Shown here piece by piece: positions 8,864-51,330 of a stretch of DNA of 51,664 nucleotides (positions are counted from its first letter, which is position 1; each line of letters opens with the position of its first letter). The position numbers and the translations under genes were made by a program. The notes beneath the pieces are model-generated. The model was given only the letters and a program-made list of their open reading frames with translations. It did no database searches and was not told where the DNA came from. Source of the DNA: a virus; IMG/VR virus record IMGVR_UViG_3300050821_010028, positions 1 through 51,664 of that record; one strand, given 5' to 3'.

Positions 8864-8864
8864 G

Positions 8865-14366: not shown

Positions 14367-14376
14367 TTAAGATGTT

Positions 14377-14451: not shown

Positions 14452-14454
14452 GTG

Positions 14455-15490: not shown

Positions 15491-15513
15491 TCCTTAAAGC
15501 CTGATGGCTTATT

Positions 15514-15547
15514 GCCCTGCATTCTCTTTGAGAGTGCGGGGCTTTTT
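15514..15547 (+). terminator. Rho-independent terminator after the kelch gene
   Basis: A long hairpin (GCCCTGCA... with partner TGCGGGGC, inner TCTC/GAGA) followed by TTTTT on the plus strand, 24 bp past the stop. Confidence 0.88.
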
Positions 15548-15553
15548 ATTGGC

Positions 15554-15754: not shown

Positions 15755-15776
15755 GACTTTCTCCAATTGTGAATTC

Positions 15777-15850
15777 TGGTAGGCAGTGAGGGAATCGAAC
15801 CCACGTAACTTGCGAGTCATGCAAGTACTCTACCATTGAGATAACCGCCC
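15777..15850 (-). tRNA. tRNA-Val(GAC), unusual loop
   Basis: Acceptor GGGCGGT/ACTGCCT with G-T pairs, D arm TCTC..GAGT, anticodon stem CTTGC/GCAAG. The loop ATGACTC gives anticodon GAC (codon GTC) but has T at position 37, where a purine is normal. CCA encoded at 15777-15779. Confidence 0.75.
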
Positions 15851-15859
15851 ATGGTATAT

Positions 15860-15933
15860 TGGTTGGAGCTAAGGGAATCGAACCCTTGTCTTCGGAGTGT
15901 AAAACCGAAGCTCTACCATTAAGCTAAGCTCCA
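15860..15933 (-). tRNA. tRNA-Val(TAC)
   Basis: Acceptor TGGAGCT/AGCTCCA, anticodon loop TTTACAC (TAC, codon GTA), T loop TTCGATT. CCA encoded at 15860-15862. Confidence 0.9.
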
Positions 15934-15938
15934 ATAGA

Positions 15939-16013
15939 TGGTCGGCGTTGGGGGATTCGAACCCTCGACTTCCAGCTTGTAAGGCTAGCACTCTACCGCT
16001 GAGTTAAACGCCG
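15939..16013 (-). tRNA. tRNA-Val(TAC), second copy
   Basis: Acceptor CGGCGTT/AACGCCG, D arm ACTC..GAGT, anticodon loop CTTACAA (TAC), T loop TTCGAAT. CCA encoded at 15939-15941. The sequence differs widely from the other Val(TAC) gene. Confidence 0.88.
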
Positions 16014-16049
16014 ATGCAGATTATATACCACTAAAGTCATATATGTAGT

Positions 16050-16445
16050 ATGAAAAAGTCTCAAGCCTACCTTCTTAAACTTGCCGCCAAATTTGGAAAC
16101 AAATACGCCCAGTCTCAATCACTCCAGCAAATTATTGAAGCTGCCGCTGGTTGGGGAGAGAAAAGCGCCAATGGCATCATGGATTTTCCTACCCAATTGA
16201 AACAAGATAAAGCTAACTTAACAATTGATATCACGGTTAGCAATGCCATGATGGGCGGCTATAATGTTGAAGTTGCTCCGCCTCAAGTGGACCCAGCACA
16301 GTTTGCTGCGAAGTATGCTAGACTACCTGACCAAATCAAAAAGTATTTGGATAGACATATTAAGGATTTCCCTCAAGTTTATCCTGGCACCACAACACTA
16401 AGGTTTGTCGGTAAAGATCCTGAAAGCGGCGTCGCCCAGAACTAA
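16050..16445 (+). CDS. Unknown protein with LAxxF N-terminal helix
   Basis: A 131-residue protein. It opens with SQAYLLKLAAKFGNKYAQSQ, the short amphipathic helix also seen at 12482-13684 and 17428-17745. The body (NLTIDITVSNAMMGGYNVEV and FPQVYPGTTTLRFVGKDP) is mixed alpha/beta. The ATG lacks a good ribosome site. It ends 2 bp before the CCA of tRNA-Met on the other strand. Possibly a virion protein (inference). Confidence 0.65.
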   Translation: MKKSQAYLLKLAAKFGNKYAQSQSLQQIIEAAAGWGEKSANGIMDFPTQLKQDKANLTIDITVSNAMMGGYNVEVAPPQVDPAQFAAKYARLPDQIKKYLDRHIKDFPQVYPGTTTLRFVGKDPESGVAQN

Positions 16446-16446
16446 T

Positions 16447-16521
16447 TGGTCGTGGTGGTGGGAGTCGAACCCACTTAGAACGGCGTATGAAACCGTCGCA
16501 TATCCGATTTGCTACACCACG
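16447..16521 (-). tRNA. tRNA-Met(CAT), elongator-type
   Basis: Acceptor CGTGGTG/CACCACG fully paired (C1-G72), so not an initiator. Anticodon CAT; T loop TTCGACT. CCA encoded at 16447-16449. An Ile tRNA read through lysidine cannot be excluded. Confidence 0.85.
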
Positions 16522-21720: not shown

Positions 21721-21733
21721 GACAAACTCACAT

Positions 21734-22741
21734 TCACAAATCGTGCTTAATACCGTTGAAGACGGCAACAGCACTAGCTAATAGGTTCTCCTTCAAACAG
21801 ATTTCGTCACACAACATCATGCGACGGTATCCAATATCGTATAGCCAAGCTATCTCTACGAGGTCAGCACATGATGGCACGGGGCTATCAATGACCGACA
21901 GTAGAAGTCGCGAGCCTACACAAGCTTCTGGGTCTTTTGCAATAATCTGGCGTAAAGCCTGAATCATATGATGAGGTTGTTCCACCTCAACGAACAAATC
22001 TCCACGAGCTGCAACCAATACCAAATTATCCCGTTTCTTGAATTCATTGGTAACGAACTGCATGCCAGGGAGACTTTCAATCTTCAACCAGACTTCAGCA
22101 TCCCGACCAACCAATTCTAGGAACTGGTCTATATCACTTTGCTTTTCAACATAGGATAAAAAGTATTTATTGAATCCGGCAGCCCTCACCTTTTCAATTT
22201 TCAATAATTCTTGTGGAGTAAAGATATTACCCTTTACCTCCAAAGACTTATCTCTAATGTGGAGAGACTCTCCTGGTACCACTTTGTATCTGGGACCGCC
22301 ATCGAATACTAAGGTCTCCCCATCGTCTTCTAAGTGATCCAACAGAGCTTGGTCGGCTCCAGCTTTGAACAAGACTACACAGGGAGTCTTGACGGCAATG
22401 GGATGGTTGAGCTTGATGATAAGCTTTTCCTTATCAGGAATCACCTCAGTCACCCTCATCTGACGTCCCTTAACATCAAAGAAAAGGGGATTTCTGACAT
22501 GAGAAGACTTAATCAGTTCTAGTTCTTTGTCTAGCTCTGGATTGCTCATCATGGCGCTGTTCAAACGAATGCCAGTGATTCTAGAGTCATTGGCAAAGCG
22601 TTTGAAGTGTGGAAAACTTGGCCAAAGAGTTACGGATAACTCAGGAGCCATCTTCTTCCAAGCATTTCGTTTCTCAAAACGCTCTCGCATTTCATTAACC
22701 AAGTTCCAATTGACCTTGGCTTTATCAACAGGTCTTAACAT
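21734..22741 (-). CDS. Pyruvate-kinase-like protein
   Basis: 335 residues from an ATG at 22741 with GAGGAAATA before it; upstream Mets fall in the previous gene. Visible features: SVTLWPSFPHFKRF and GIRLNSAM near the start, a small beta domain (NPLFFDVKGRQMRVTEVIP), then a TIM-barrel part with VWLKIESLPGMQFV, LVAARGDLFVE and SRLLLSVIDSPVPSCADLVE. These match pyruvate kinase in order, but the C-terminal allosteric domain is missing. Members of this shorter group occur in phages. It may act on PEP or another phosphoester; true kinase activity is uncertain. Confidence 0.7.
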   Translation of the reverse strand: MLRPVDKAKVNWNLVNEMRERFEKRNAWKKMAPELSVTLWPSFPHFKRFANDSRITGIRLNSAMMSNPELDKELELIKSSHVRNPLFFDVKGRQMRVTEVIPDKEKLIIKLNHPIAVKTPCVVLFKAGADQALLDHLEDDGETLVFDGGPRYKVVPGESLHIRDKSLEVKGNIFTPQELLKIEKVRAAGFNKYFLSYVEKQSDIDQFLELVGRDAEVWLKIESLPGMQFVTNEFKKRDNLVLVAARGDLFVEVEQPHHMIQALRQIIAKDPEACVGSRLLLSVIDSPVPSCADLVEIAWLYDIGYRRMMLCDEICLKENLLASAVAVFNGIKHDL

Positions 22742-28320: not shown

Positions 28321-28391
28321 TGGCAGAGCCGGAGAGAATCGAACTCTCTTCCAGAGATTTGGAGTTTCTGTTGTGTCCTACACTCGACTCT
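28321..28391 (-). tRNA. tRNA-Trp(CCA)-like, atypical D arm
   Basis: Acceptor AGAGTCG/CGGCTCT and T loop TTCGATT are good and CCA is encoded. The anticodon loop CTCCAAA reads CCA (Trp) in a stem with one mismatch. The D arm is only three pairs (TGT/ACA) around AGGAC and lacks the usual GG. It is 68 nt long; possibly weak or specialised. Confidence 0.6.
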
Positions 28392-28399
28392 ATAATGCT

Positions 28400-28484
28400 T
28401 GTAAGGTAGAGGACTCGAACCTCATCCAAACGTGGGACTACCCTCTCCCGAGGATATCAGCGTACCTATCTGAATTACACTTAC
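28400..28484 (-). tRNA. Class II tRNA-like sequence, anticodon unclear
   Basis: T arm with TTCGAGT and a variable arm TCC/GGA are present, but the acceptor has two mismatches and no CCA follows. The anticodon stem TATCC/GGGTA closes an eight-base loop TCGGGAGA without a proper T33. Possibly a decayed Ser or Leu tRNA. Confidence 0.4.
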
Positions 28485-28489
28485 CAGCT

Positions 28490-28563
28490 TGGCAGGGGCA
28501 TAGGGAATCGAACCCTCATTAGCCGTTTTGGAGGCGGCAGTCCTACCATTGAACGATACCCCT
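28490..28563 (-). tRNA. tRNA-Trp(CCA)
   Basis: Acceptor AGGGGTA/TGCCCCT, D arm GTTC..GGAC, anticodon loop CTCCAAA (CCA, codon TGG), T loop TTCGATT. CCA encoded at 28490-28492. Confidence 0.9.
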
Positions 28564-28569
28564 GTAGGA

Positions 28570-28656
28570 TGGCGGAAGAAAGAGGAGTCGAACCCCTGTC
28601 CCGAAGGACTCATCTGTTTTCGAAACAGCGCCAGCAGCCATGCTGGTTTATCTTCC
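28570..28656 (-). tRNA. tRNA-Ser(CGA)
   Basis: Class II tRNA: anticodon loop TTCGAAA (CGA, codon TCG), variable arm GTCC-TTCG-GGAC, T loop TTCGACT. Acceptor GGAAGAT/TTCTTCC with one mismatch. CCA encoded at 28570-28572. Confidence 0.85.
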
Positions 28657-28659
28657 ATC

Positions 28660-28751
28660 TGGCGGAGAATACAGGATTCGAACCTGTGGAGGGCTTTTAC
28701 ACCCTCAACTGTTTAGCAAACAGTCCCGATCAACCACTCTGGCAATTCTCC
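28660..28751 (-). tRNA. tRNA-Ser(GCT)
   Basis: Class II tRNA: acceptor GGAGAAT/ATTCTCC, anticodon loop TTGCTAA (GCT, codon AGC), variable arm GAGGG..CCCTC, T loop TTCGAAT. CCA encoded at 28660-28662. Confidence 0.9.
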
Positions 28752-28772
28752 GTAGTAAGACTATATAACAAG

Positions 28773-29864
28773 TTATGCAGAGATTTTGGACAAAATCCCC
28801 GGCTCTTTCACCACCAATTCATCAAAATTATCTGTCGGATAATACTTCATTGCCGCATTAAGTCGAGCAAAATAAGCTCGCGTTACCTCTTCATTAAATC
28901 GATGTGACTGCCCAGCAGAGTCAAGTAACGGACGAAGATAACAAAGATAACGATCAAGAGACTCCTGAAAAGATAATCTCTTCAGATAGTACCAAGCTAC
29001 ATAAAGATGTTTGCGATGATTGAAATCCTTTAGATTTAAAGAGCCATTTTCAAAAGCAAAGACCAGAGAATCTGGTTTATAAGGGATGTTTTTCTTGAAT
29101 CCACCCTTGTCAATTTGGGCGCGGATGAAGTTGGTTAGTTGTTTTTGTAATTCAAGGGGCATCTTCTTTTCCACATACTCCCAATTCAAATCACCGCAAC
29201 GAGCCATCAGTAGTTCATCTACCTCTTGGATATGCTGGGCTGGGAGACGCATACGACCACAGATACAATCGGTCTCACAGCTCTTAGCAAGAGCTACCTC
29301 AGGAGCACCAAGATGCTTTGAGATTTGAAGTATCTCACTCTTCCACAGATGAATAATCGGTTGCAAACTTACTGCCGTAGATGCATTGCTATAGTTTAAC
29401 AAGATATCTTCCGTTAGGTTTCTAGTACCTACCACCCAATATTGCTCTCCTGATGGGCGCAAAATGCGTGTCTTTTCATTAGAGACAGCAGATAAATCCA
29501 TCAAACATCCCCAACGTTGTCCATCACATCTCCAATCAATGGAGGTATCAATTAGGATATCAGCTTCCTGAGCCTGCTCATGCAGCCAAGGAATTACCTG
29601 ATTACTAAACCAAAGATGAACCTCTGCCTCAGGATGATCATATAGAAAATCTTCGGATGGAGCGAAGTGAACACCTAATACACGATTAGGTTTACCAGCT
29701 AACTCAAAAGCTCTGGCAGCAGCGAGAAAGCTTACTATTGAGTCAGTTCCACTGAGACCAACCAGAAAGCCCGGAGCCCCTTGATGAAGTATTAAGTCAT
29801 GAAACCATTCAACCAATGCATCAAAAGTTCTGGCAGGATTGATAGTTCGGGGAGTATTTAACAT
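28773..29864 (-). CDS. NAD synthetase-like PP-loop protein
   Basis: 363 residues from an ATG at 29864 behind GAGG. The N-terminal domain resembles NadE: FLVGLSGTDSIVSFLAAARA (PP-loop), VVGTRNLTEDILLNYSN, and LQPIIHLWKSEILQISKHLG. The PP-loop reads S-G-T-D-S, one residue shorter than the usual S-G-G-x-D-S. No glutaminase domain is present, so ammonia would be the donor. Residues 180-220 hold a four-Cys patch (CETDCICGRM). It starts 1 bp past the ADP-ribosylglycohydrolase stop; with the NUDIX gene this forms an NAD/ADP-ribose cassette. Confidence 0.72.
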   Translation of the reverse strand: MLNTPRTINPARTFDALVEWFHDLILHQGAPGFLVGLSGTDSIVSFLAAARAFELAGKPNRVLGVHFAPSEDFLYDHPEAEVHLWFSNQVIPWLHEQAQEADILIDTSIDWRCDGQRWGCLMDLSAVSNEKTRILRPSGEQYWVVGTRNLTEDILLNYSNASTAVSLQPIIHLWKSEILQISKHLGAPEVALAKSCETDCICGRMRLPAQHIQEVDELLMARCGDLNWEYVEKKMPLELQKQLTNFIRAQIDKGGFKKNIPYKPDSLVFAFENGSLNLKDFNHRKHLYVAWYYLKRLSFQESLDRYLCYLRPLLDSAGQSHRFNEEVTRAYFARLNAAMKYYPTDNFDELVVKEPGILSKISA

Positions 29865-29865
29865 C

Positions 29866-30801
29866 TTATTGAGCCTCAATACTAAGAAGTTCTTGTGTTA
29901 AGCCATCTAACAACGTAAAGTTCTCTACAGTCTTATATTCCTCTGGGAGACCTTCCATCCCATACCAAGTGCCCGCCATTGCCCCTACAATTGCCGCAGT
30001 GGTATCTGTATCTCCACCACCCTTGATTGCCATGATAACCGCTTCCTGGTACGATTGTGTGGCACCCAGACAGTAAAAAGCTGCCCCTACCGTCTCAGGA
30101 ACGTAGCCCCTGGTTCCGATGTCAGCCAAAGCTTCCTGAGCAATAGAATCTAAAGGAGTTCCTTGCTCAAGCCACTTCATAGCCTGTTGAATCTTACCCT
30201 GCACCATCGACTCTGTCAAGACCGAACTAACATCCCAAGCAACCGACTGAGGTGTACTTACCCTATTAGCCAGTAAAGCCACTCCCATTGCCACCGCAAC
30301 CGAACCCATTTTAGGCTCCAAGGAGTTGTGAGTAATAGAGGCATCCTTGATGGCTACCTCCATTAGCTTGACCAAATCATGACGATAGACCAGACCAATC
30401 GGAGAGGCTCGCATGGCTGTACCATTACCAGCTACATCTGTACCATCTGGATTCTTAGACAGACCGCTCTCTAAATGGGAGGCTCCCAGCTTCAAACGAG
30501 TCAAAGAAGCGGCAGTAGTTCCACCAATTCCTCGGGTGTTACCTGACTCCATCCAGGCTAGATATTTCTGTCCAGCATCGTCTGGATTGTACCCTTGGTG
30601 CTCGATTAAGCTGGCAGCTAGTGCCATACTCATCAGAGTGTCATCGGTATACTGTCCAGGTTGACCCCACCAAAAGGTTCCGCCTTCCTTAAAAAGACCG
30701 TCCCATTCAGCTAAACCGGGCTTAGTAGCAGCCCACATTTCAAATGGATTACCTAGGGCATCACCGATAGCACAGCCGACTAGTGTAGCAATCTTAACCA
30801 T
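29866..30801 (-). CDS. ADP-ribosylglycohydrolase family protein
   Basis: A 311-residue protein of DraG/ARH3 type. Motifs: VGCAIGDALGNPFE near the N-terminus, GQYTDDTLMSMALA (metal ligands T-D-D), GNGTAMRASPIGL, and GGGDTDTTAAIVGAMAGTWYG (metal ligands D-x-D). These enzymes remove ADP-ribose from proteins or nucleic acids, or hydrolyse related glycosides. In this cassette it may reverse host ADP-ribosylation or feed ADP-ribose to the NUDIX enzyme. It overlaps the NUDIX gene by 8 bp. Confidence 0.9.
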   Translation of the reverse strand: MVKIATLVGCAIGDALGNPFEMWAATKPGLAEWDGLFKEGGTFWWGQPGQYTDDTLMSMALAASLIEHQGYNPDDAGQKYLAWMESGNTRGIGGTTAASLTRLKLGASHLESGLSKNPDGTDVAGNGTAMRASPIGLVYRHDLVKLMEVAIKDASITHNSLEPKMGSVAVAMGVALLANRVSTPQSVAWDVSSVLTESMVQGKIQQAMKWLEQGTPLDSIAQEALADIGTRGYVPETVGAAFYCLGATQSYQEAVIMAIKGGGDTDTTAAIVGAMAGTWYGMEGLPEEYKTVENFTLLDGLTQELLSIEAQ

Positions 30802-31222
30802 TGTTAACTCGTTTCTGAGTGAAACCCCATGAAGCCAGAACTGGAACCACTACGGGAGAGATGTCATCTGGTAAGTCATTGAAGTTAAACCAACCTACAT
30901 CATAGAGGTCGCTTCCGTCCTTAGGAGTGTCATCTAGATTGAATCCAGACATAACTGAAGCGTGAGCTACCAAGATAAGTCGATCAGGAAGTTCAATCAC
31001 ATCGGGACGAGCCCAACGCTCTGAACAAGACCAAATCTCTAATCCAGTCTCTTCCTTGATCTCTCTTTGGAAGGCTTGTTCTAGTGATTCACCCTCTTGA
31101 ACTCCGCCACCAGGAAGCACAAAAAGACCTCGATTGGGGTCTTTACCACGACGCCCCATTAGGATATGAAGCGAGTGTTTACCACCACTTCGAATGATAC
31201 CGGCGACGCCTAATCGTTTCAT
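30794..31222 (-). CDS. NUDIX hydrolase
   Basis: A 142-residue protein with a complete NUDIX box, GGGVQEGESLEQAFQREI followed by KEETGLE, at residues 37-62. Such enzymes cleave nucleoside diphosphates linked to another group. The operon partners suggest ADP-ribose or NAD-type substrates, but mutT-like activity is equally allowed by the motif. GAGGTC precedes the ATG. Confidence 0.9.
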   Translation of the reverse strand: MKRLGVAGIIRSGGKHSLHILMGRRGKDPNRGLFVLPGGGVQEGESLEQAFQREIKEETGLEIWSCSERWARPDVIELPDRLILVAHASVMSGFNLDDTPKDGSDLYDVGWFNFNDLPDDISPVVVPVLASWGFTQKRVNNG

Positions 31223-31228
31223 GTGACC

Positions 31229-31591
31229 TCAATATTGAAAATCTTCGGCATGAGCTGCCCAATCTACCTTGTCAACTATATCGCTCACACTAACAATTGG
31301 TTCCTCGGAAAACCAAACAATAACCAAATGTGACCCATGATTTTCAGAATCTTTAGCTGAACCATCTGCCCAAACCATATGAGTCCAAGCAGGCAACATT
31401 TCATAGGGACCGAAGTGATGTTTCTTAGGAATCACTTGAATAATTGGCTCCATAATATAGATTGGGATTGCCATGCCCCATAATTTTTTAGCTTGATTAC
31501 GAATGCTATTATAGGTTGATTCTAATGGAGGAACACCTTCTAGGCAACCCGAATATGTACGATAGGAATAAAAATGACTAATGGACTTCAT
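31229..31591 (-). CDS. Unknown protein
   Basis: 120 residues from 31591; an earlier ATG would sit in tRNA-Ser. The start is 11 bp behind the CCA of that tRNA, with only GAGTAAG as ribosome site. Central HHFGPYEMLPAWTHMVWADG and LVIVWFSEEPIVSVSDIV suggest a compact alpha/beta fold. It leads into the NUDIX/ARH/NadE-like genes. No family recognised. Confidence 0.6.
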   Translation of the reverse strand: MKSISHFYSYRTYSGCLEGVPPLESTYNSIRNQAKKLWGMAIPIYIMEPIIQVIPKKHHFGPYEMLPAWTHMVWADGSAKDSENHGSHLVIVWFSEEPIVSVSDIVDKVDWAAHAEDFQY

Positions 31592-31602
31592 GTAACTTAC
31601 TC

Positions 31603-31690
31603 TGGAGGAAATGGTGGGATTCGAACCCACGGAACCTTACGGTCCTCTTGTTTAGTAGACAAGTCTGATAGACCACTCTAGCACATTTCC
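31603..31690 (-). tRNA. tRNA-Ser(ACT)
   Basis: Class II tRNA with perfect acceptor GGAAATG/CATTTCC, anticodon stem CTTGT/ACAAG, loop CTACTAA (ACT, codon AGT), variable arm GGACC..GGTTCC, T loop TTCGAAT and encoded CCA. A34 in the AGN serine box is rare in bacteria. Confidence 0.85.
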
Positions 31691-31693
31691 ATT

Positions 31694-31785
31694 TGGAGGA
31701 AGCTGTGGGATTCGAACCCACGGGGGACTTTTACATCCCCTCTTGTTTTCAAGACAAGCCCGATCAACCGCTCTGGCAAGCTTCC
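31694..31785 (-). tRNA. tRNA-Ser(TGA)
   Basis: Class II tRNA: acceptor GGAAGCT/AGCTTCC, anticodon loop CTTGAAA (TGA, codon TCA), T loop TTCGAAT. CCA encoded at 31694-31696. Confidence 0.9.
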
Positions 31786-31952
31786 TTATATTCATCTAAA
31801 AGGGTAGAAATTTTCTCCATCTCTTTCAACATTTCATTGTCTCTAGAATGATCTTCCGGATTCGTTTTGATCCACTCAAAAAGAGAATCAACTTTAGCTA
31901 CTTGCGTATCTATCTTCTTTTTAAAGAGACGATGAATATACTTGTTCTTCAT
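31764..31952 (-). CDS. Small unknown protein filling a tRNA gap
   Basis: A 62-residue, Lys/Glu-rich helical protein (HRLFKKKIDTQVAKVDSLFE, then EMLKEMEKISTLLDEYKEA). Its ATG lies one base after the CCA of tRNA-Ser(GGA), and its last seven codons plus stop run into the 5' end of tRNA-Ser(TGA). There is no ribosome site, so it would be leaderless if the tRNA is processed first. The composition looks like real coding sequence. Confidence 0.5.
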   Translation of the reverse strand: MKNKYIHRLFKKKIDTQVAKVDSLFEWIKTNPEDHSRDNEMLKEMEKISTLLDEYKEACQSG

Positions 31953-31953
31953 T

Positions 31954-32043
31954 TGGCGGAGGAGGAGGGATTCGAACCCTCGGACCCCTTACGAGGTCAC
32001 TACCTTTCCAGGGTAGCCGTTTCAGCCACTCACGCACCCCTCC
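31954..32043 (-). tRNA. tRNA-Ser(GGA)
   Basis: Class II tRNA: acceptor GGAGGGG/CTCCTCC, anticodon stem CTACC/GGTAG with loop CTGGAAA (GGA, codon TCC), variable arm GACC..GGTC, T loop TTCGAAT. CCA encoded at 31954-31956. Confidence 0.9.
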
Positions 32044-32049
32044 GTGGGG

Positions 32050-32130
32050 TTAGGTACTAATGGTTCCGTAGGAACCGTTGTTACCATTCTTATGAACTCC
32101 TGGGACATAGCCCAAATTAATGTTGTTCAT
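32050..32130 (-). CDS. Micro-ORF filling the gap between tRNA-Cys and tRNA-Ser
   Basis: 26 codons (MNNINLGYVPGVHKNGNNGS and a short end) from an ATG placed directly after the CCA of tRNA-Cys to a TAA 6 bp before tRNA-Ser(GGA). It is Gly/Asn-rich, without a ribosome site. The DNA also forms a hairpin (GGTTCC/GGAACC), so an RNA role is an alternative. Reported mainly because of the repeated start-after-CCA layout. Confidence 0.3.
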   Translation of the reverse strand: MNNINLGYVPGVHKNGNNGSYGTIST

Positions 32131-32206
32131 TGGAGTCGCGGGTCAGATTCGAACTGACAGATACAGAGGTTGCAGCTCTGCCCCTTAGCCATTTGGGTAC
32201 CGCGAC
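32131..32206 (-). tRNA. tRNA-Cys(GCA)
   Basis: Acceptor GTCGCGG/CCGCGAC, anticodon stem CAGAG/CTCTG with loop CTGCAAC (GCA, codon TGC), T loop TTCGAAT. CCA encoded at 32131-32133. Confidence 0.9.
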
Positions 32207-37191: not shown

Positions 37192-37393
37192 GAATATCCT
37201 TTAATACTTCTAGAGAAAGAAGTAACAATCGCCCGCCCTCATGACTTGAAAACCATTCAGGATTTTCTAGATAATCAATCAGGAAATTATAAGCAGTTGA
37301 TTGTGAAGCATTAAATTTTACATTAGCCACTGAATCAAGTAATGCTTCTATCGCAGAAGATTCTTTAGCCAGCTCAAACTCTTTAGCGTTCAT
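37178..37393 (-). CDS. Unknown small helical protein
   Basis: A 71-residue, helical protein (AKESSAIEALLDSVANVKF and GRLLLLSLEVLKDIHE). Coupled on both sides (4 bp overlap with the RNA ligase, 14 bp with the cupin). No family recognised. Confidence 0.65.
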   Translation of the reverse strand: MNAKEFELAKESSAIEALLDSVANVKFNASQSTAYNFLIDYLENPEWFSSHEGGRLLLLSLEVLKDIHEKS

Positions 37394-38004
37394 CGTCTCT
37401 CCAGACGTTTAAGATAATCCTTAGTCTTCACTTTAGTCATGAAGACTTCTCCATCTACTATGCCTTTTACTACCACACCTTCATTGACATTATATTTGCC
37501 CTTACGAACATCCTCGGCAAATTGTCCCGTATACTTGCCACGGTAAATAATTTCGGCAGTTCTAAAACCATAGAACACATTGGTAAACAACTCGGGTGAC
37601 ATAAGCCTTCCATTGAGCATCACATCAATCATAACAAGCTCATGTTCATCATTTAGATCATGACCACCAGCAAATGAATTGGATCCATAAAACTCAGTGA
37701 AAAGAAGTATGGTTTGCATGTGATAAGCGGTGTTAACACAAAAAAACTTTGTTAGCTTGTCTCGCAACACATCACTAAAAATATATGGAGCACTAGCTAA
37801 TTCTGAATGTTCTTTTGCAAACTCATCCATTCCCTTTTTAGTTAGAGGGAACTGAGTGCGACGAGTGCCAAAATGAGTCCAGCCATCTTGTGGGTCCCAT
37901 TTCCAATGAAGATTAGTTCCATCATATTTTTCAAAGGCAATACACTTGCCGTGGAACTTATCACTGTTTTCTGGAATTTTGGGGTAAACTAAATCTACTT
38001 TCAT
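37390..38004 (-). CDS. RNA ligase-like nucleotidyltransferase (copy 2)
   Basis: A 204-residue protein. Motif I EKYDGTN has the expected nucleotidyl lysine at residue 26; FGTRRTQ, LFTEFYGSNSFAGGHDLN, motif IV NEGVVVKG and motif V MTKVKTKDYL follow. The order and length match copy 1 at 3319-3936, so the two are paralogues, but identity looks low. It lies 19 bp upstream of the 3' end of rnpB on the same strand, which places an RNA-joining enzyme beside a tRNA-processing RNA. Confidence 0.82.
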   Translation of the reverse strand: MKVDLVYPKIPENSDKFHGKCIAFEKYDGTNLHWKWDPQDGWTHFGTRRTQFPLTKKGMDEFAKEHSELASAPYIFSDVLRDKLTKFFCVNTAYHMQTILLFTEFYGSNSFAGGHDLNDEHELVMIDVMLNGRLMSPELFTNVFYGFRTAEIIYRGKYTGQFAEDVRKGKYNVNEGVVVKGIVDGEVFMTKVKTKDYLKRLERR

Positions 38005-38023: not shown

Positions 38024-38367
38024 GGAGAGAGCCATCAATAAGCGGCGTCCTGTCTATAAAACGAGGCAATCATTAATCTACGCGGATAGTTACCTATCCG
38101 CTTTAGCACTAACCCGTAAGCTCGTCCCAACAAGACTCAGACGCTTACTGTTTAGCTTGCAGCACCCAGGGTTTGCCTTGCCATTGATGTCTCCATCCAT
38201 GCGGTAGTCTCTTACACTGCCATTTCACCCTTACCCTTGCGGGCGGTTTCTTTTCTGTTGCACTTTCCGTCACATCACTGTGCCTGGACGTTATCCAGTG
38301 GGTTGTTGTGCGCTGCGCCGACTTTCCTCGATAGTTGCCTATCGCGATTACCTAAATGACTCTCTCC
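38024..38367 (-). ncRNA. rnpB: RNase P RNA
   Basis: A 344-nt RNA on the minus strand. P1 is formed by GGAGAGAG at the 5' end and CTCTCTCC at the 3' end. Conserved blocks are in order: GAGGAAAGTC (P4 5' side), AGGGTGAAATGGC and GTAAGAGACTACCGC (the J11/12 region), and GACAGGACGCCGCTTAT (P4 3' side). This RNA is the catalytic part of RNase P, which cuts the 5' leader off tRNA precursors. No protein subunit gene is in the window, so it must use a host or distant rnpA. The P1 3' strand runs into TTTTTGTTTT, which may act as terminator. Confidence 0.9.
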
Positions 38368-38382
38368 AAAACAAAAATTAAT

Positions 38383-38643
38383 AGGGTACGAAAAGTTTCC
38401 AGAAAAGCTGGGTTAACAAGTGCTCATTGCTTAGTACTCATTGCTGAGGGCTTAGCGCTGACTGCTCACGATGCTATAAGTGCTAACCGCTGACCAGCTT
38501 TAAGATGCTGGGGTTGGTATCGAGATCGGAAGCGAGTTTTGCTCTTATCAAGGAGCGCCGGTTAATGGGTATCAATTAATTACCCGAAGGTAATTGTCCT
38601 ATGAAGAGGGGTTCCAACTTTTACTGTACGTTCTTCGTACCCT
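38383..38643 (-). ncRNA. Structured RNA of unknown class next to rnpB
   Basis: A 261-nt segment closed by a perfect long-range stem (AGGGTACGAA at the 5' end, TTCGTACCCT at the 3' end). Inside are AATTACC-TTCG-GGTAATT, CCAGC/GCTGG hairpins, GTTGG/CCAAC, and a region of ten or so repeats of the type TNAGC every 7-9 bases. It has no reading frame. Like rnpB it is followed by ATTTTTGTTTT. It does not show the tmRNA, 6S or SRP signatures I looked for. Confidence 0.6.
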
Positions 38644-46263: not shown

Positions 46264-46341
46264 TGGTTGCAGTAACGGGATTTGAACCACGTGACCTCAA
46301 GGGTATGAACCTTGCGAGCTGCCAGACTGCTCCATACTGCT
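46264..46341 (-). tRNA. Initiator tRNA-fMet(CAT)
   Basis: The D region TGGAGCAGTCTGGCAGCTCG and the T loop TTCAAAT match bacterial initiator tRNA. The first pair of the acceptor is A1 x A72, unpaired as in initiators, with AGCAGTA/TACTGCA otherwise paired. Anticodon CAT in stem CAAGG/CCTTG. The T stem carries one bulged T. CCA encoded at 46264-46266. Confidence 0.88.
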
Positions 46342-46363
46342 ATAGAAAGTAACCGAAGTTACT

Positions 46364-46437
46364 TGGTTGAGAAACTAGGAATCGAACCTAGATAGCGAGG
46401 GTCAAAGTCTCGCGTCCTGCCATTGGACGATTTCTCA
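46364..46437 (-). tRNA. tRNA-Gln(TTG)
   Basis: Acceptor TGAGAAA/TTTCTCA, anticodon loop CTTTGAC (TTG, codon CAA), T loop TTCGATT. CCA encoded at 46364-46366. A small hairpin AGTAAC/GTTACT lies just upstream. Confidence 0.9.
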
Positions 46438-46447
46438 ATAAACTTAC

Positions 46448-46521
46448 TGGCTCAGGAGCTAGGATTCGAACCCAGATAAGCAGGTTCAGAGCCTGCCGTC
46501 CTACCATTAGACGATTCCTGA
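46448..46521 (-). tRNA. tRNA-Gln(CTG)
   Basis: Acceptor TCAGGAA/CTCCTGA with one mismatch, anticodon stem GCAGG/CCTGC, loop CTCTGAA (CTG), T loop TTCGAAT. CCA encoded at 46448-46450. Confidence 0.9.
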
Positions 46522-46529
46522 ATGATAGA

Positions 46530-46603
46530 TGGCTCAGGGGTCTGGATTCGAACCAGCATAGCGGGGGTCAAAGTCCCGCGTCCTACCATTAGACGATCCC
46601 TGA
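46530..46603 (-). tRNA. tRNA-Gln(TTG), second copy
   Basis: Acceptor TCAGGGA/CCCCTGA with one mismatch, anticodon loop CTTTGAC (TTG), T loop TTCGAAT. CCA encoded at 46530-46532. Confidence 0.9.
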
Positions 46604-46613
46604 ATAGTATCTC

Positions 46614-46802
46614 TTATATATCTTTATTGCTAGAAGCTGCGATAGAATCTAAGATTTTAAATATCTCTGCGTCTTCCTCCGCCATAATTTGCTGGCGAAC
46701 AAGCTCACCCAGTGAACCTATTCGAGTAATGCTTTTGGTTCCAATATCGTCCTTGGAAGTAATAACTATTACTTCATGCTCAAACACTTGAGCCCCTGTC
46801 AA
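46614..46802 (-). CDS. Small unknown protein of a local paralogue group
   Basis: A 62-residue protein with FEHEVIVITSKDDIGTKSIT, matching FEHDVINIDDRDNIGTDSHL in the neighbouring gene at 46780 and FQHDIIEIDSADKIVRN in that at 47155. It overlaps the upstream gene by 23 bp and has no clear ribosome site. Function unknown. Confidence 0.5.
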   Translation of the reverse strand: MTGAQVFEHEVIVITSKDDIGTKSITRIGSLGELVRQQIMAEEDAEIFKILDSIAASSNKDI

Positions 46803-47130
46803 TGACGTTGAACCTGCGTCTCTTTACCTCACTAATTTTGATGGTTGGATTGGCATACAGCTCAAACTCTGGAACAGTAACTCGTCTACCAAATACTCGA
46901 TTGAGATGAGAATCTGTTCCAATATTATCACGGTCATCAATGTTAATGACATCGTGTTCGAAAGCTAGTACAACAGCGGAAACATCAATCTCTGTATCAT
47001 ATTCTACTGGCTGAGGAGGATTAGTAATCGCTCTTCTAGCAATACCTTGATAAGGTAAACTTCTTCTCACTCCAGGGCGTTTAACCTTGGATATTTGGTC
47101 TCGGCAGTCAATTTCGATTGGATGTTCCAT
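46780..47130 (-). CDS. Unknown protein of a local paralogue group
   Basis: A 116-residue protein. Its middle (VVLAFEHDVINIDDRDNIGT) is the shared motif of the three-gene group, and its start (HPIEIDCRDQISKVKRPGVR) may be a second, weaker copy. The C-terminus is basic. Possibly an internal duplication of a strand-turn-helix unit. No family recognised. Confidence 0.55.
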   Translation of the reverse strand: MEHPIEIDCRDQISKVKRPGVRRSLPYQGIARRAITNPPQPVEYDTEIDVSAVVLAFEHDVINIDDRDNIGTDSHLNRVFGRRVTVPEFELYANPTIKISEVKRRRFNVIDRGSSV

Positions 47131-47154
47131 GTCGGAACATATATCGAATTATCC

Positions 47155-47337
47155 TTACATCTTACCGGACCACTTGAGAATATCTTCGTAATCTCTTTGA
47201 TTCATAATAATTCTATTAGACTGTAAACTCCAGCCATCAATTACTTTGACAAGATCTTTTAGATCAGTTGCTAAACCATTATTCCTTACAATCTTATCAG
47301 CAGAATCAATTTCAATTATATCGTGTTGGAAATCCAT
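47155..47337 (-). CDS. Small unknown protein of a local paralogue group
   Basis: 60 residues from 47337: DFQHDIIEIDSADKIVRNNG, then LKDLVKVIDGWSLQSNRIIM. Third member of the H-[DE]-[IV]-I group. No ribosome site. Function unknown. Confidence 0.5.
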   Translation of the reverse strand: MDFQHDIIEIDSADKIVRNNGLATDLKDLVKVIDGWSLQSNRIIMNQRDYEDILKWSGKM

Positions 47338-47488
47338 ACACAATATATAACATTGGTCACCCAGGTCAGGCTCACACCGACATCTTCTTCCACCAAAGGA
47401 AGTGTTTTGATCAGAATACTAATCAGCGTAAGTTTGGTTAGCGCGCTCTCCCTTACACCAACATTCTCCCTTAAACTACCGGATGATA
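47338..47488. other. Gene-poor stretch, possible decayed tRNA
   Basis: No convincing gene. On the minus strand, AGAATGTTGGTGTAAGGGAG and AGCGC resemble a 5' tRNA half with a D arm, and AGAAT/ATTCT could close it, but there is no T arm. Confidence 0.3.
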
Positions 47489-47590
47489 TGGTACCTCGCC
47501 CAGGAATTGCACCCGATTCTCTGTCCATGCCAGTTCGTTGATTCAGCGCCGCGGAAGACAGCCAGCAGAGATTATTTCGAATTGCGAGGT
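47489..47590 (-). ncRNA. tRNA-like RNA with encoded CCA
   Basis: A minus-strand segment with perfect acceptor-like stem ACCTCGC/GCGAGGT, discriminator A, encoded CCA at 47489-47491 and a T-arm-like TCGGG-TGCAATT-CCTGG. The middle folds as TCTCTG/CAGAGA instead of normal D and anticodon arms. Too long (99 nt) and off-consensus for a standard tRNA. Confidence 0.45.
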
Positions 47591-47752
47591 ATAAAGTTGC
47601 CTTAATGACCTAACCTAACATCTTTCGATGGTTTGCTACTTAGTAACGTAATACGCTAAGATTCTGCTTCAATCAATTTGCGCACCTAGTCATGCAAGGC
47701 TCGACCGCTCAGTAACGCCAACTTATTGAATAAACGTTGATCACTAAAGTGT
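47591..47752. other. Intergenic region
   Basis: No gene, tRNA or clear hairpin found between the tRNA-like RNA and tRNA-Ala. It probably contains the promoter of the tRNA-like RNA. Confidence 0.3.
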
Positions 47753-47828
47753 TGGTGGAGCATACCGGATTCGAACCGGTCGCCTCCTGATTGCAAGTCA
47801 AGCGCTCTCCCTAATGAGCTAATGCCCC
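47753..47828 (-). tRNA. tRNA-Ala(TGC)
   Basis: Acceptor GGGGCAT/ATGCTCC, D arm GCTC..GAGC, anticodon loop CTTGCAA (TGC, codon GCA), T loop TTCGAAT. CCA encoded at 47753-47755. Confidence 0.92.
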
Positions 47829-47836
47829 AACTAGGA

Positions 47837-48005
47837 TACAGTTTATTTTCACTGGGTCATGATATCCTGTAGGACCCAGAGAATCCTTTACGGATTCAAC
47901 TACCATCTTTGATGGTCCCTTACGGGACACCATCTTCAAACTTTTACTCGGCTGAAATTAGGCAACTTGTGAAGCATTTCGCGATTTACGCTTCGTGCCT
48001 AACCA
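47837..48005. other. Chain of hairpins between two Ala tRNAs
   Basis: Five consecutive inverted repeats: CTGGGTC/GACCCAG type, GAATCC/GGATTC, ACCATC/GATGGT, GTCCC/GGGAC and TTAGGCA/TGCCTAA with inner GAAGC/GCTTC. No reading frame on either strand fits. It looks like structured RNA or processing signals. Confidence 0.45.
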
Positions 48006-48013
48006 GCGAGTTA

Positions 48014-48089
48014 TGGTGGAGCTTGCGGGGGTCGAACCCGCGACCTTCACACTGCCAGCGTGACGCTCTCCCAATTGAGCTAAAGCCCC
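48014..48089 (-). tRNA. tRNA-Ala(GGC)
   Basis: Acceptor GGGGCTT/AAGCTCC, D arm GCTC..GAGC, anticodon loop CTGGCAG (GGC, codon GCC), T loop TTCGACC. CCA encoded at 48014-48016. Confidence 0.92.
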
Positions 48090-48095
48090 ATAACC

Positions 48096-48293
48096 TTATC
48101 TTACTTTTACTAATTCGTCTTCTCTTTCTTTTCTTCCTGCTCTATATCCTAGCTCTGATAATGCCACCGCTACAACCCCCATAATCAACATGGAAAGATG
48201 TGCATGGTATGGATGAGTAATGAATCTTACTCCCCAATACATAAACATGGTAGAAGTGCTTAGAGCCTGTACTATTCTAAAATTCAGTTTCAT
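48096..48293 (-). CDS. Small membrane protein starting at a tRNA end
   Basis: 65 residues from an ATG one base after the CCA of tRNA-Ala(TGC) to a stop 6 bp before tRNA-Ala(GGC). Two hydrophobic segments (IVQALSTSTMFMYWGVRFI and LSMLIMGVVAVALSELGY) and a charged tail (RAGRKEREDELVKVR). There is no ribosome site. The plausible topology argues for real coding; it would be a leaderless mRNA if the tRNA is trimmed first. Confidence 0.6.
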   Translation of the reverse strand: MKLNFRIVQALSTSTMFMYWGVRFITHPYHAHLSMLIMGVVAVALSELGYRAGRKEREDELVKVR

Positions 48294-48294
48294 T

Positions 48295-48368
48295 TGGTGG
48301 ACCGTCAGGGAATCGAACCCTGAATTTCTGCGTGCAAGGCAAATGTTATCCCGTTTAACTAACAGCCC
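48295..48368 (-). tRNA. tRNA-Ala(TGC), second copy
   Basis: Acceptor GGGCTGT/ACGGTCC with G-T pairs, anticodon loop CTTGCAC (TGC), T loop TTCGATT. CCA encoded at 48295-48297. Confidence 0.88.
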
Positions 48369-48387
48369 AATCTTACTCCCTATATAT

Positions 48388-48591
48388 CTACTTATTGCCA
48401 ACTTTATCATATTCTTTCTGAGTGCAGTCTGGACATAAATCCTCATGACGAGAATAATTGGTCATGCCCCAACCATGAGTTTCAATAGAATTCCATCCCT
48501 TCGGGCGCTCCCAGGAATAGACTTCACGAACAAATTCCACCTTTTTACAGTAGTCACAGATGAATTTATAGTTTTTTAATTCGTAATTCAC
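48388..48591 (-). CDS. Small zinc-finger protein starting at a tRNA end
   Basis: 67 residues if translation begins at the GTG that directly follows the CCA of tRNA-Lys; the only ATG lies inside the tRNA acceptor. It has FICDYCKKVEFVREVYSW and HEDLCPDCTQKEYDKVG, a two-CxxC zinc site. The cysteine pattern shows it is a real protein. No ribosome site. Confidence 0.6.
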   Translation of the reverse strand: MNYELKNYKFICDYCKKVEFVREVYSWERPKGWNSIETHGWGMTNYSRHEDLCPDCTQKEYDKVGNK

Positions 48592-48668
48592 TGGTAGGTT
48601 CATTGGGATTCGAACCCAACCTGAGCAGCTTAAAAGGCTGCGGTGCTATCCGCTAACACTATGAACCC
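48592..48668 (-). tRNA. tRNA-Lys(TTT)
   Basis: Acceptor GGGTTCA/TGAACCT, anticodon stem GCAGC/GCTGC, loop CTTTTAA (TTT, codon AAA), T loop TTCGAAT. CCA encoded at 48592-48594. Confidence 0.92.
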
Positions 48669-48670
48669 AT

Positions 48671-48952
48671 TCATTTAATCAATTTTTCTACTTCATCTCG
48701 ACATGGAACATGAGTATAAACATTATCAGTTCCAATTGGATAACCATGAACATAACTGACTGCAAAACATAACCCGGTACGCTTATCCTTTACATACTGA
48801 ATCGCATTGACTTCCTGCGCTTCCGAAGAAAGCTTTTTCGGTTCTCCAGGTTGATTATCACAACCCACATAAATTAATCCAGCCAATACAATTGTAGTTA
48901 GCAATATGCAGTTGGCTAACAAATCCGTTTTATTCACCTTGGGCAAATGCAT
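48671..48952 (-). CDS. Small membrane-anchored or lipoprotein-like protein
   Basis: 93 residues from an ATG at 48952 behind AAGGAAAG. A hydrophobic N-terminal segment (LLANCILLTTIVLAGLIYVG) ends at a Cys followed by DNQPGEP, like a lipoprotein signal but with an imperfect lipobox. The mature part has a second Cys pair (GLCFAVSY and VPCRDEVEK). It overlaps the upstream gene by 23 bp. Confidence 0.65.
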   Translation of the reverse strand: MHLPKVNKTDLLANCILLTTIVLAGLIYVGCDNQPGEPKKLSSEAQEVNAIQYVKDKRTGLCFAVSYVHGYPIGTDNVYTHVPCRDEVEKLIK

Positions 48953-49340
48953 GTTTAATCTTTCCTTGAAAGGACACGAACACGAAACCTTGGAAAATTT
49001 CTCCATCATCCACTGCATCATTGGTAAAGTTGAAAGACAGTAAATTAGGATTGACATCACTCACTCGGACACCATACAGAATCCAATGCTCTGGCTTATG
49101 TCCCTCAGTCTTGAGAAACTCTGCCATGCTGTCATTGTCTTCTAACAGTTTAGAATAATCTCCTAGAGGAGCAATGTTGACGAACTCATGAGTCAGAGAC
49201 TCTGCTTTCTCAACCACATGATTACTAAGGGCTTGCTGCAATTCTAGAATAGAAACACCAAGTTTCTCTTGAATCTTTTGCTGGACTTGCTCCATGGTAT
49301 CTTCCACCTGCAAATCCAAATCTTCCATCTTCTCAATCAT
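48930..49340 (-). CDS. Unknown protein with coiled-coil N-terminus
   Basis: 136 residues from ATG 49340 behind GAGG. The first half is helical (DLQVEDTMEQVQQKIQEKLG); the second is beta-rich (HWILYGVRVSDVNPNLLSFN and IFQGFVFVSFQGKIKHA). A promoter lies 21 bp upstream and supports this start. No family recognised. Confidence 0.65.
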   Translation of the reverse strand: MIEKMEDLDLQVEDTMEQVQQKIQEKLGVSILELQQALSNHVVEKAESLTHEFVNIAPLGDYSKLLEDNDSMAEFLKTEGHKPEHWILYGVRVSDVNPNLLSFNFTNDAVDDGEIFQGFVFVSFQGKIKHAFAQGE

Positions 49341-49356
49341 GTTGATGCCTCGTTCG

Positions 49357-49950
49357 TTACAATGTAACCACGCGGGGCGTGCTGTCAATGTTTTTTATTT
49401 GATTCAAAACTTTTAATAGGTCGGCTTCCTCGGGCGGAGCTTCAATGTGTGGCAGCCTAAAGTCTTCCAGCAATTTCTTAATGCCAGAATCAATTTCTCG
49501 CGCTTCCGCTTCCGTCTGGTAACGCCCCTCGCTAATGTAAGGTTTGGTTCGTTTAAGGAAGACATGAATATGCTTGTGACCGTCATCCGCTGCTTGGCGA
49601 TAGAATGCCAGAGTGGCTGCCCTGACTCCCTCACCCAAGGTCTGAGTGCAGTAGCGCTGAGCATAGTAGAGGTTCATCATGACTGGAGAGTCAGTGACTA
49701 TGTAGTCTACTTTACCATACAGCATGGACTCACGACGAACTTGTTTCCCCAGGAAATAGATTTGGTCATAGGTACTAATCTTGCGACCTTCCCACGCCCA
49801 ATCTTTGACGTATTCTCTGACCAACTCTACGTTCTTATGTTCTGCTTTCAGAATATAATAGAAATAGGCGGCGGAGGTTGACTTGCCAGTTCCGGGACCA
49901 CCATATAAATTGATGATGGTAGTCTTTAGTTTATTGTCATGATGAGTCAT
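49357..49950 (-). CDS. P-loop kinase-like protein (AAA_28/NadR-like)
   Basis: A 197-residue protein with Walker A NLYGGPGTGKSTSAAYFYYI at residues 14-33, VELVREYVKDWAWEGRK, VDYIVTDSPVMMNLYYAQRY (Walker B region) and HIHVFLKRTKPYISEGRYQT (lid with Arg). This layout is that of the AAA_28 family, which includes the ribosylnicotinamide kinase part of NadR and polynucleotide-kinase-like phage enzymes. It could phosphorylate nicotinamide riboside or RNA/DNA 5' ends; both would fit other genes of the window. GGAG before ATG. Confidence 0.75.
   Translation of the reverse strand: MTHHDNKLKTTIINLYGGPGTGKSTSAAYFYYILKAEHKNVELVREYVKDWAWEGRKISTYDQIYFLGKQVRRESMLYGKVDYIVTDSPVMMNLYYAQRYCTQTLGEGVRAATLAFYRQAADDGHKHIHVFLKRTKPYISEGRYQTEAEAREIDSGIKKLLEDFRLPHIEAPPEEADLLKVLNQIKNIDSTPRVVTL
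49361..49388 (-). promoter_or_regulatory. Sigma70-type promoter inside the end of the kinase gene
   Basis: TTGACA (49383-49388), 16-bp spacer, TACATT (49361-49366) on the minus strand, overlapping the 3' end of the upstream gene and driving the 49340 gene. Confidence 0.7.
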
Positions 49951-49965
49951 TCTTTATCTTACTCC

Positions 49966-50040
49966 TGGTGGGCTGAGCGGGAATCGAACCCGCACGGACG
50001 GTTTAAGAGACCGCTATGCTACCATTAACATCATCAACCC
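49966..50040 (-). tRNA. tRNA-Lys(CTT)
   Basis: Acceptor GGGTTGA/TCAGCCC, anticodon loop CTCTTAA (CTT, codon AAG), T loop TTCGATT. CCA encoded at 49966-49968. Confidence 0.9.
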
Positions 50041-50276
50041 ATTACCCAGAGCTTGGAATCCAAGACTGGTTTCAATTTCTTATACACTTCATCAATACAA
50101 TCTCGACAGTAGATTTCCCTACTATCACCCAAATAAATCGCCAGAACAGTTTCATTTTCTTTAAGATGAAAATTTTTTCCTATTATGTTGTGGTGATATT
50201 TGGGATCATGTTTACAATCTGGATTGTCACATGACCATCCAGAAGTTTGCATTTTGAATAAACTTACTCTAATCAT
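50034..50276 (-). CDS. Small zinc-ribbon protein between two Lys tRNAs
   Basis: An 80-residue protein from an ATG one base after the CCA of tRNA-Lys(TTT); its stop lies 7 bp inside the 5' end of tRNA-Lys(CTT). Zinc-type pairs GWSCDNPDCKHDPKYHHN and YCRDCIDEVYKK show real coding. No ribosome site. One of the clearest cases of an ORF fitted exactly into a tRNA gap. Confidence 0.65.
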   Translation of the reverse strand: MIRVSLFKMQTSGWSCDNPDCKHDPKYHHNIIGKNFHLKENETVLAIYLGDSREIYCRDCIDEVYKKLKPVLDSKLWVMG

Positions 50277-50277
50277 C

Positions 50278-50353
50278 TGGTGGAACTGGAGGGAATCGAA
50301 CCCATCATTAGGCGGTTTAAAAGACCGCTATGCAACCATTACATCACAGTTCC
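50278..50353 (-). tRNA. tRNA-Lys(TTT), second copy
   Basis: Acceptor GGAACTG/CAGTTCC, anticodon stem GCGGT/ACCGC, loop CTTTTAA (TTT), T loop TTCGATT. CCA encoded at 50278-50280. Confidence 0.9.
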
Positions 50354-50355
50354 GT

Positions 50356-50430
50356 TGGTGAGTCCTGAGGGAGTCGAACCCTCATCGACCGGGTAAGAGC
50401 CGGCTGCTCTAGCCATTGAGCTAAGGACCC
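50356..50430 (-). tRNA. tRNA-Lys(CTT), second copy
   Basis: Acceptor GGGTCCT/AGGACTC, D arm GCTC..GAGC, anticodon loop CTCTTAC (CTT), T loop TTCGACT. CCA encoded at 50356-50358. Only 2 bp from tRNA-Lys(TTT). Confidence 0.9.
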
Positions 50431-50437
50431 ACGATAC

Positions 50438-51112
50438 TTACTTTAATCTTCTTAAGTATTTAGTTAGTTGATTGAATGCTTCTGGATTATTTGCCAATGA
50501 TTTTCCGAGTGGGCAATCATTGCAGGGTTCAAACTTTTTTGTAATACCCTTACCATCACAAGCATAACACGCTTTATAATCATCTAGATTACGAGATAGC
50601 AAATACATGGGCTTCAAAAGTTTCCATGGATATAAAACCTGGTCATCTTTATTGTACATTGGTTCTTTAGTGCGCAGGGCAATTGATGCTCTCCATTGTC
50701 TAATGTGACTGGATAGTTCCCATCCTCTCAAAATTAGATCACGACCTGTTCCAGCAACTGAAATAATTGCCCTATCATTAGGATCTTTCTTTTTGAGTAC
50801 CAAAGAATTCTCCTGCTCTTTAATCCATCTCACATCAAATACCTGAACATCTGGAACTCTGGTGAATTTTCCATCTGGATTATCATAAGGTATTTTCGCC
50901 CAATGAGCAACTGCTATTTCAGATCGCACCCAAGCAATTTCAGCTTCTTCAGAAGAATTTTCATCAATTCTACCATGTAACTTATTATTGGCGAACATTT
51001 CTTTACCATATTGCTCGCCTAAATCCATCTCATCATCTGTCAGAGTGATGAACACATAATGGGATTTAACTAGTGCGCCAAAATCTTGATTGTCGTAATC
51101 TACATCAGTCAT
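50438..51112 (-). CDS. Unknown phage-type protein, possible PD-(D/E)XK fold
   Basis: A 224-residue protein. AEIAWVRSEIAVAHWAKIPY, RVPDVQVFDVRWIKEQENSL and VLKKKDPNDRAIISVAGTGR, then RDLILRGWELSSHIRQW, follow the order of nuclease-like phage proteins (helix with Glu, V-x-D strand, acidic-x-R-W strand, K-x-D). A four-Cys zinc site (CYACDGKGITKKFEPCNDCP) lies near the end. Enzymatic activity is not certain. AGGTG stands before the start. Confidence 0.6.
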   Translation of the reverse strand: MTDVDYDNQDFGALVKSHYVFITLTDDEMDLGEQYGKEMFANNKLHGRIDENSSEEAEIAWVRSEIAVAHWAKIPYDNPDGKFTRVPDVQVFDVRWIKEQENSLVLKKKDPNDRAIISVAGTGRDLILRGWELSSHIRQWRASIALRTKEPMYNKDDQVLYPWKLLKPMYLLSRNLDDYKACYACDGKGITKKFEPCNDCPLGKSLANNPEAFNQLTKYLRRLK

Positions 51113-51253
51113 GATAACACCTGTAAAATTGAGGGTACACGGTTATTATAACGTGGACGGCGTGGATGAAATATAATTAAATAATTGGTATAGATGTGTT
51201 TTCATTAACGAATCTGTCATTACTGCCATCAACGTCATTGCTGTCATTGCCGA
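51113..51253. other. Intergenic region with promoter-like box
   Basis: No gene. On the minus strand a TATAAT stands about 30 bp upstream of the 51112 start. Closer to tRNA-Phe, AATGAC recurs three times within about 40 bp. Confidence 0.4.
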
Positions 51254-51330
51254 TGGTGCCGCCAAACAGAATCGAACTGTTATCTTCACGTTTTCAGCGT
51301 GACGCTCGTAAACCAATGAGCTATGGCGGC
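51254..51330 (-). tRNA. tRNA-Phe(GAA)
   Basis: Acceptor GCCGCCA/TGGCGGC, anticodon stem TCACG/CGTGA, loop CTGAAAA (GAA, codon TTC), T loop TTCGATT. CCA encoded at 51254-51256. Confidence 0.92.

Follow-up and report, generated by a model that had tools for sequence, protein, structure and literature searches.

A full-length gene for class A RNase P RNA under selection in a tRNA-rich viral contig

Nearly all cellular life possesses the ribozyme RNase P RNA. In bacteria, it requires the protein subunit RnpA in vivo, and many tests have shown RnpA to function with P RNAs of foreign origin. The tandem pre-tRNAs of T4-type phages are matured by RNase P (PMC11143913). T4 itself depends wholly on the RNase P of its host. 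The translation genes described for huge phages comprise tRNAs, the elongation factors EF-G, EF-Tu, and EF-Ts, tRNA synthetases, and a CCA-adding enzyme (Al-Shayeb et al. 2020, PMC7162821); RNase P is not mentioned in the main text of that paper. Lui et al. 2021 (PMC8172020) report having detected no RNAs other than tRNAs and a tmRNA in the circular megaphages they studied. No report of a phage- or virus-encoded RNase P RNA was found in the literature searched, with most subscription papers and preprints outside the scope of the search, and priority is unproven.

The window, meaning the whole stretch of DNA analyzed here, is an IMG/VR record, a linear contig of 51,664 bases. The RNA specified by its rnpB gene is like bacterial class A RNase P RNA (E. 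coli M1 RNA) in its P1-P18 architecture with P6, P16, and P17, its P4 with a bulged U, and its GGU motif. Unlike the bacterial RNAs, it is encoded by a virus, the carrier has no RnpA gene in the searched records, P3 is short, P12 is minimal, P4 contains the pairs G71-C and C73-G, and J2/4 has a G for an A. The G71 variant is also present in some bacteria. The tRNA arrays, EF-G, and EF-Ts of the window correspond to those of the huge phages in PMC7162821, and the kind of phage and the setting are alike. The tandem pre-tRNAs, with their proposed maturation by RNase P, resemble the T4-type arrays, but unlike T4, this phage supplies the catalytic RNA itself. Overall, the rnpB gene is real, viral, and under selection, and a function in a hybrid RNase P is likely, although its activity is inferred. 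The features are listed in Table 1.

Table 1. Coordinates of rnpB, its structural elements, and other features of the window
Feature	Position	Strand	Basis or remark
rnpB, class A RNase P RNA	38024..38367	-	340-nt Rfam match plus 4 additional P1 base pairs
P3, short hairpin CGAUAG-GCAA-CUAUCG, 6 bp	38329..38344	-	RF00010 alignment and structure check
P4 5' strand AAG-U-CGGCG, bulged U	38316..38324	-	Full pairing with 38040-38047
P4 3' strand CGCCGCUU, end of conserved region V	38040..38047	-	Pairs with 38316..38324
P6 5' strand CAACAA	38303..38308	-	Complementary to UUGUUG, 38128-38133
P6 3' strand UUGUUG in L17	38128..38133	-	Perfect pairing with CAACAA
P12, minimal, GCCC-GCAA-GGGU	38233..38244	-	RF00010 alignment
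GGU motif, P15/L15 loop	38112..38114	-	CGGGUU (38116-38111) aligned to consensus CGGGU
RNA ligase, family F4	37390..38004	-	PF09414, E=1.4e-6; phrog_548
Conserved non-coding stretch directly upstream of rnpB	38370..38530	-	Alignable over full length in G040, G019, and G023
Nine tRNA genes (Arg, Gln, 3 Gly, 3 Val, Met)	7276..16521	-	ARAGORN; CCA in 8/9
Seven tRNA genes (2 Trp, 4 Ser, Cys)	28321..32206	-	ARAGORN; CCA encoded
Twelve tRNA genes (Met, 3 Gln, 3 Ala, 4 Lys, Phe)	46265..51330	-	ARAGORN; CCA encoded
Elongation factor Ts	9873..10769	-	PF00889, E=1.9e-48
Elongation factor G	19630..21774	-	PF00009, E=1.4e-59; phrog_6880, E=4e-114

Identity, fold, and selection

A single RNase P match was returned by cmscan for the window, to RF00010 at positions 38363-38024 on the minus strand, with 258 bits (E=4.8e-83) at a gathering score of 100. 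The match was not truncated and covered positions 1-367 of the 367 in the model, so that the criterion of a significant covariance-model match over the whole class A model was met. P1 was lengthened beyond the Rfam match by the pairing of GGAG at 38367-38364 with CUCC at 38027-38024. Among 141 strongly conserved consensus positions, 124 agreed, and four of the departures were matched changes in P4. The sequence from 38367 to 38024 specifies a class A RNase P RNA in its entirety. The first-pass annotation, made from sequence alone, had placed an RNase P RNA at 38024-38367, and this held with the full-length score of 258 bits. Its length of 344 nt and start at 38367 held exactly with the P1 extension, and the test by covariance model that it had set was passed with a score far above the cut-off. 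Its view that peripheral helices had been lost held only in part, with P3 and P12 being shortened and no helix missing.

When the Rfam consensus structure was applied to the sequence, 93 nested pairs with five mismatches resulted, and every class A helix was present, including the P4 and P6 pseudoknots. All eight pairs of P4, which joins conserved regions I and V, could form, with CGGCG/CGCCG instead of the bacterial consensus CCGGG/CCCGG; the bulged U of this helix belongs to the catalytic core and corresponds to U69 of E. coli. The G71-C variant of P4 was considered as a phage-specific trait and rejected, as many Bacillota, Actinomycetota, and Bacteroidota carry it. The long-range pairing between P6 and L17, a hallmark of type A, was also found. 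The GGU motif is taken to be the binder of the 3' CCA of pre-tRNAs, as established for RNase P. The RNA departs from one class A criterion, that J2/4 should have its invariant adenosines (ACAGAA): the window, like the majority of its clade, has ACAGGA there, with one adenosine changed to G. The same ACAGGA was rare in the bacterial set examined but occurred in 2 of its 42 members, which shows that ACAGAA in J2/4 varies among bacteria and is not strictly defining for class A. The change could affect the activity of the RNA.

Selection on the fold was evaluated by a covariation test with an alignment of twelve sequences of the clade, the structure taken from the window, and 500 shuffles. In the clade alignment, 93.4% of the pair cells were paired (shuffled mean, 77.3), 64 of the 106 pairs showed changes on both sides (shuffled mean, 38.5), and the covariation score was 0.535 compared to 0.221 in the shuffled alignments. 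None of the 500 shuffles equaled the observed values for pairing, double changes, or covariation. Pairing fell to 33-42% when the partners were slid by 1 to 3 columns. P4 and P6 are not contained in the nested Rfam structure line; four of the eight P4 pairs showed double changes in the clade, and four of the five counted P6 pairs covaried. The rnpB fold is held by selection, the catalytic core and the substrate-binding domain included.

Viral setting, gene neighborhood, and distribution

The window contains 28 tRNAs for 11 amino acids according to ARAGORN, to which Rfam added one weak tRNA at 46187-46258; the about 31 tRNAs of the first-pass annotation were slightly too many. All of them are located on the minus strand, as are rnpB and most of the longer open reading frames. 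CCA is encoded by 27 of the 28 tRNAs, and the gaps between neighboring tRNAs of the arrays go down to 2-11 nt. The three clusters are likely to be the substrates of the phage RNase P RNA, a conclusion reached without activity data. Two other genes of the window are of note on their own: an ice-binding protein (40414-41370; PF11999, E=1.7e-74), which is unusual for a phage and may point to a cold habitat, and a protein in which a DnaJ domain is joined to a protein kinase domain (23921-24979).

Evaluation of the viral nature of the window rests on a comparison with relatives because no terminase match was found in its 51.7 kb. These were sought in IMG/VR with two conserved words of rnpB, and the hits were confirmed with RF00010; the confirmed contigs include sizes of 130-480 kb. 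Clustering of the proteins encoded around rnpB revealed one conserved block in 13 contigs (11 of them distinct) besides the window, in the order F1 (HNH-like) plus F11 or F12 upstream, rnpB, F4 (RNA ligase), F2, F6, F8, F14, and F3. A large terminase subunit was present in five of the block-sharing contigs, identified by PF03237 (Terminase_6N) in G005, G015, G024, and G034 and by phrog_2 in G006; three of these five were scanned with phrog_675, and all three matched with E=1e-54 or better. The occurrence of block and terminase on the same contigs of relatives already joins rnpB to phage structural genes. The tested rnpB contigs above 120 kb carried 41-65 tRNAs. A search for 16S rRNA (RF00177) was negative in all 16 records, the window included, and found 16S in 9 of 14 controls. 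The conserved gene order and the viral context are thereby shown, and the contig is a fragment of a huge phage, a term that fits better than the "phage-like" element of the first-pass annotation. A chromosomal origin, which would have refuted that annotation, was checked, and the stretch passed as viral on the block common to 13 contigs, five with terminase, without 16S rRNA or RnpA.

The RNA ligase gene adjoins rnpB, 20 nt downstream, and in 10 other contigs a member of its family F4 follows closely after rnpB. The nucleotidyl-transferase motif EKYDGT can be seen in its sequence; repair or processing of tRNAs by this ligase is possible but speculative. The conserved non-coding stretch on the other side of rnpB may be a promoter or leader. 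A scan for promoters and terminators around rnpB yielded nothing beyond chance. This stretch of about 160 nt contains AGC-rich short repeats and TTTTCGTACCCTATTA, a motif with four near-matches in the window versus 0.46 expected; there is an inverted match at 38620-38651.

In a maximum-likelihood tree, the twelve distinct rnpB sequences of the clade formed one group (support 99/98), within which the window joined G040 and G019 (100/99). Its rnpB was 88% identical to that of G040 and 71-79% to those of the other distinct members listed. Five rows of the tree labeled HOST looked reverse-complemented, with a very long branch, and were left unused; G035 among the HOST rows is a phage of the window clade. 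P12 carries inserts of 150-180 nt in G019, G040, and G012. Those of G019 (L041) and G040 (L096) are homologous and apparently structured, about 150 nt long, and without an Rfam match; the window groups with G040 yet has a minimal P12. The insert of G012 (L048) is almost exactly one open frame for a hydrophobic peptide of 53 amino acids beginning with MNILSLMIG, whose start and stop codons both fall within the P12 stem. G031 has, just upstream of its full rnpB gene, a second, truncated copy of the 5' end (L253, 6349-6386).

Outside the window's block, rnpB was found inside the tRNA arrays of several other viral contigs that look unrelated, namely G016/G029, G025, G041, G036, G042, and G033. In G016/G029 (279 kb and 129 kb), 32 tRNAs, all with CCA, are near rnpB, and in the high-GC contigs G036, G042, and G033, rnpB is positioned between tRNA-Thr and tRNA-Gly among 33-38 tRNAs. 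G048 (252 kb) is another instance. The tree did not join all array-borne rnpB genes to the window clade, which fits more than one acquisition of rnpB. No firm number of acquisitions can be given because of the long branches and the biased bacterial set, which had been picked by the P4 pattern and leaves the bacterial source of the phage gene unresolved.

With the CYTH-like neighbor F3 as a probe, 31 loci were obtained. The supported subclade that includes the window has nine members, all with rnpB, and several more distant relatives lacked it, with related huge-phage contigs of 327-452 kb giving no class A match anywhere in the contig. This indicates that rnpB is a stable trait of one subclade but optional or dispensable in the wider family. 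Some of the huge phages lacking rnpB do have tRNAs. G054 (433 kb), a distant relative, contains a divergent rnpB copy that was missed by the word search. A blastn search of INPHARED with five phage rnpB sequences revealed no clear isolate phage with rnpB; blastn is weaker than a covariance model, and isolates may have been missed. The matches were unannotated metagenomic fecal records, prophage-edge or bacterial sequences, and "Microcystis phage MaAM05" (MW495066.1, 107320-123472; L243). The last, with fabI, engB, glyS, mtgA, and rnpB, seems to be bacterial sequence rather than a phage.

Proposed function and rival explanations

No gene for RnpA (PF00825) was found in the window, in 16 records, or in 14 more. 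The RnpA criterion for an RNase P holoenzyme was not met in the window and these 30 other records, and the candidate explanation of an RnpA encoded nearby was rejected. The absence from the searched records is shown; the contigs are linear, and an RnpA gene outside them is not excluded. The best explanation, and a likely one, is a virus-encoded ribozyme that uses the RnpA of the host to mature the phage pre-tRNAs, with transcription, assembly with host RnpA, catalysis, and the benefit to the phage all being inferred. In this scheme, rnpB would probably be transcribed with its neighbors during infection. The RNA would adopt the class A fold and, as no RnpA is encoded by the phage, recruit that of the host. 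The resulting hybrid of viral RNA and host protein would cleave the 5' leaders of the many tandem pre-tRNAs of the phage, which may be recognized by the GGU motif reading the encoded CCA. Even with host rnpB destroyed, diluted, or outcompeted, tRNA maturation would then be secured. The claim of the first-pass annotation that such an element would control tRNA 5' maturation remains an inference without activity data. Points in favor of the enzyme are the full-length RF00010 match, covariation, gene order, terminase, the grouping of the twelve clade sequences, tRNA richness, the position of rnpB within a tRNA array in five further contigs (G016 among them), GGU together with CCA, and the absence of RnpA from the searched records. 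Against it stand the dispensability of the gene, the G in J2/4, a compatibility with host RnpA that rests on an unidentified host, and the lack of expression and activity data.

Alternatively, the RNA may be a decoy that binds host RnpA or pre-tRNAs and lowers the RNase P activity of the host, its own cleavage being unimportant. The phages carry the RNA without the protein, so that it must meet host RnpA, and the change in J2/4 near the active site would suit reduced catalysis. A decoy, however, needs neither the P4 core nor the specificity domain (P7-P14) nor GGU, all of which are kept with compensatory changes. The association with tRNA arrays in several lineages indicates processing of pre-tRNAs instead, and inhibition of RNase P would hurt the phage's own tRNAs, which makes a decoy improbable. 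Bacterial RNase P also cuts pre-4.5S RNA, tmRNA, some mRNAs, and phage RNAs (PMC11143913, PMC4919922), and the RNA could mainly process such non-tRNA targets, phage mRNAs or others. The strongest genomic association is nevertheless that with tRNA arrays and CCA-encoding tRNAs, and there is very little to recommend this possibility.

Equally weak is the case for a passenger, an rnpB acquired with host DNA or a tRNA cluster and with little present function. Several related huge phages live without rnpB, and its location inside the tRNA arrays of other lineages makes a joint capture with tRNAs plausible. A passenger would decay, yet strong covariation was seen, which already disfavors this explanation, and the gene occupies one conserved position in 12 distinct phages with rnpB sequences 71-88% identical to that of the window. 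Finally, the sequence might come from a bacterial chromosome or an assembly chimera. The missing terminase match in the window itself would agree with this, as would the prophage-edge contigs with host rnpB in IMG/VR, with matches near contig ends. The shared gene order with its five terminase contigs, the lack of 16S rRNA and RnpA, and 28 tRNAs in 51.7 kb leave almost no room for it, and host contamination was rejected on the conserved block, the terminase in relatives, and the absent 16S rRNA.

Beyond the preferred reading of a phage ribozyme working with host RnpA, several independent tRNA-rich phage lineages may have made RNase P a hybrid of viral ribozyme and cellular RnpA, in which the viral RNA would be tuned to phage pre-tRNAs and maturation would be under the control of the phage. 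The evidence falls slightly short of favoring this bolder reading. For checks of metagenome assemblies, rnpB is an unsafe sign of cellular origin. With a P12 smaller than any other seen here, next to relatives with large inserts, the window RNA is part of a natural test of which peripheral elements are required. If the RNA works, these phages would provide RNase P RNAs that evolve in nature while obliged to function with a foreign RnpA, and huge phages would contribute the catalyst of tRNA maturation in addition to tRNAs and translation factors.
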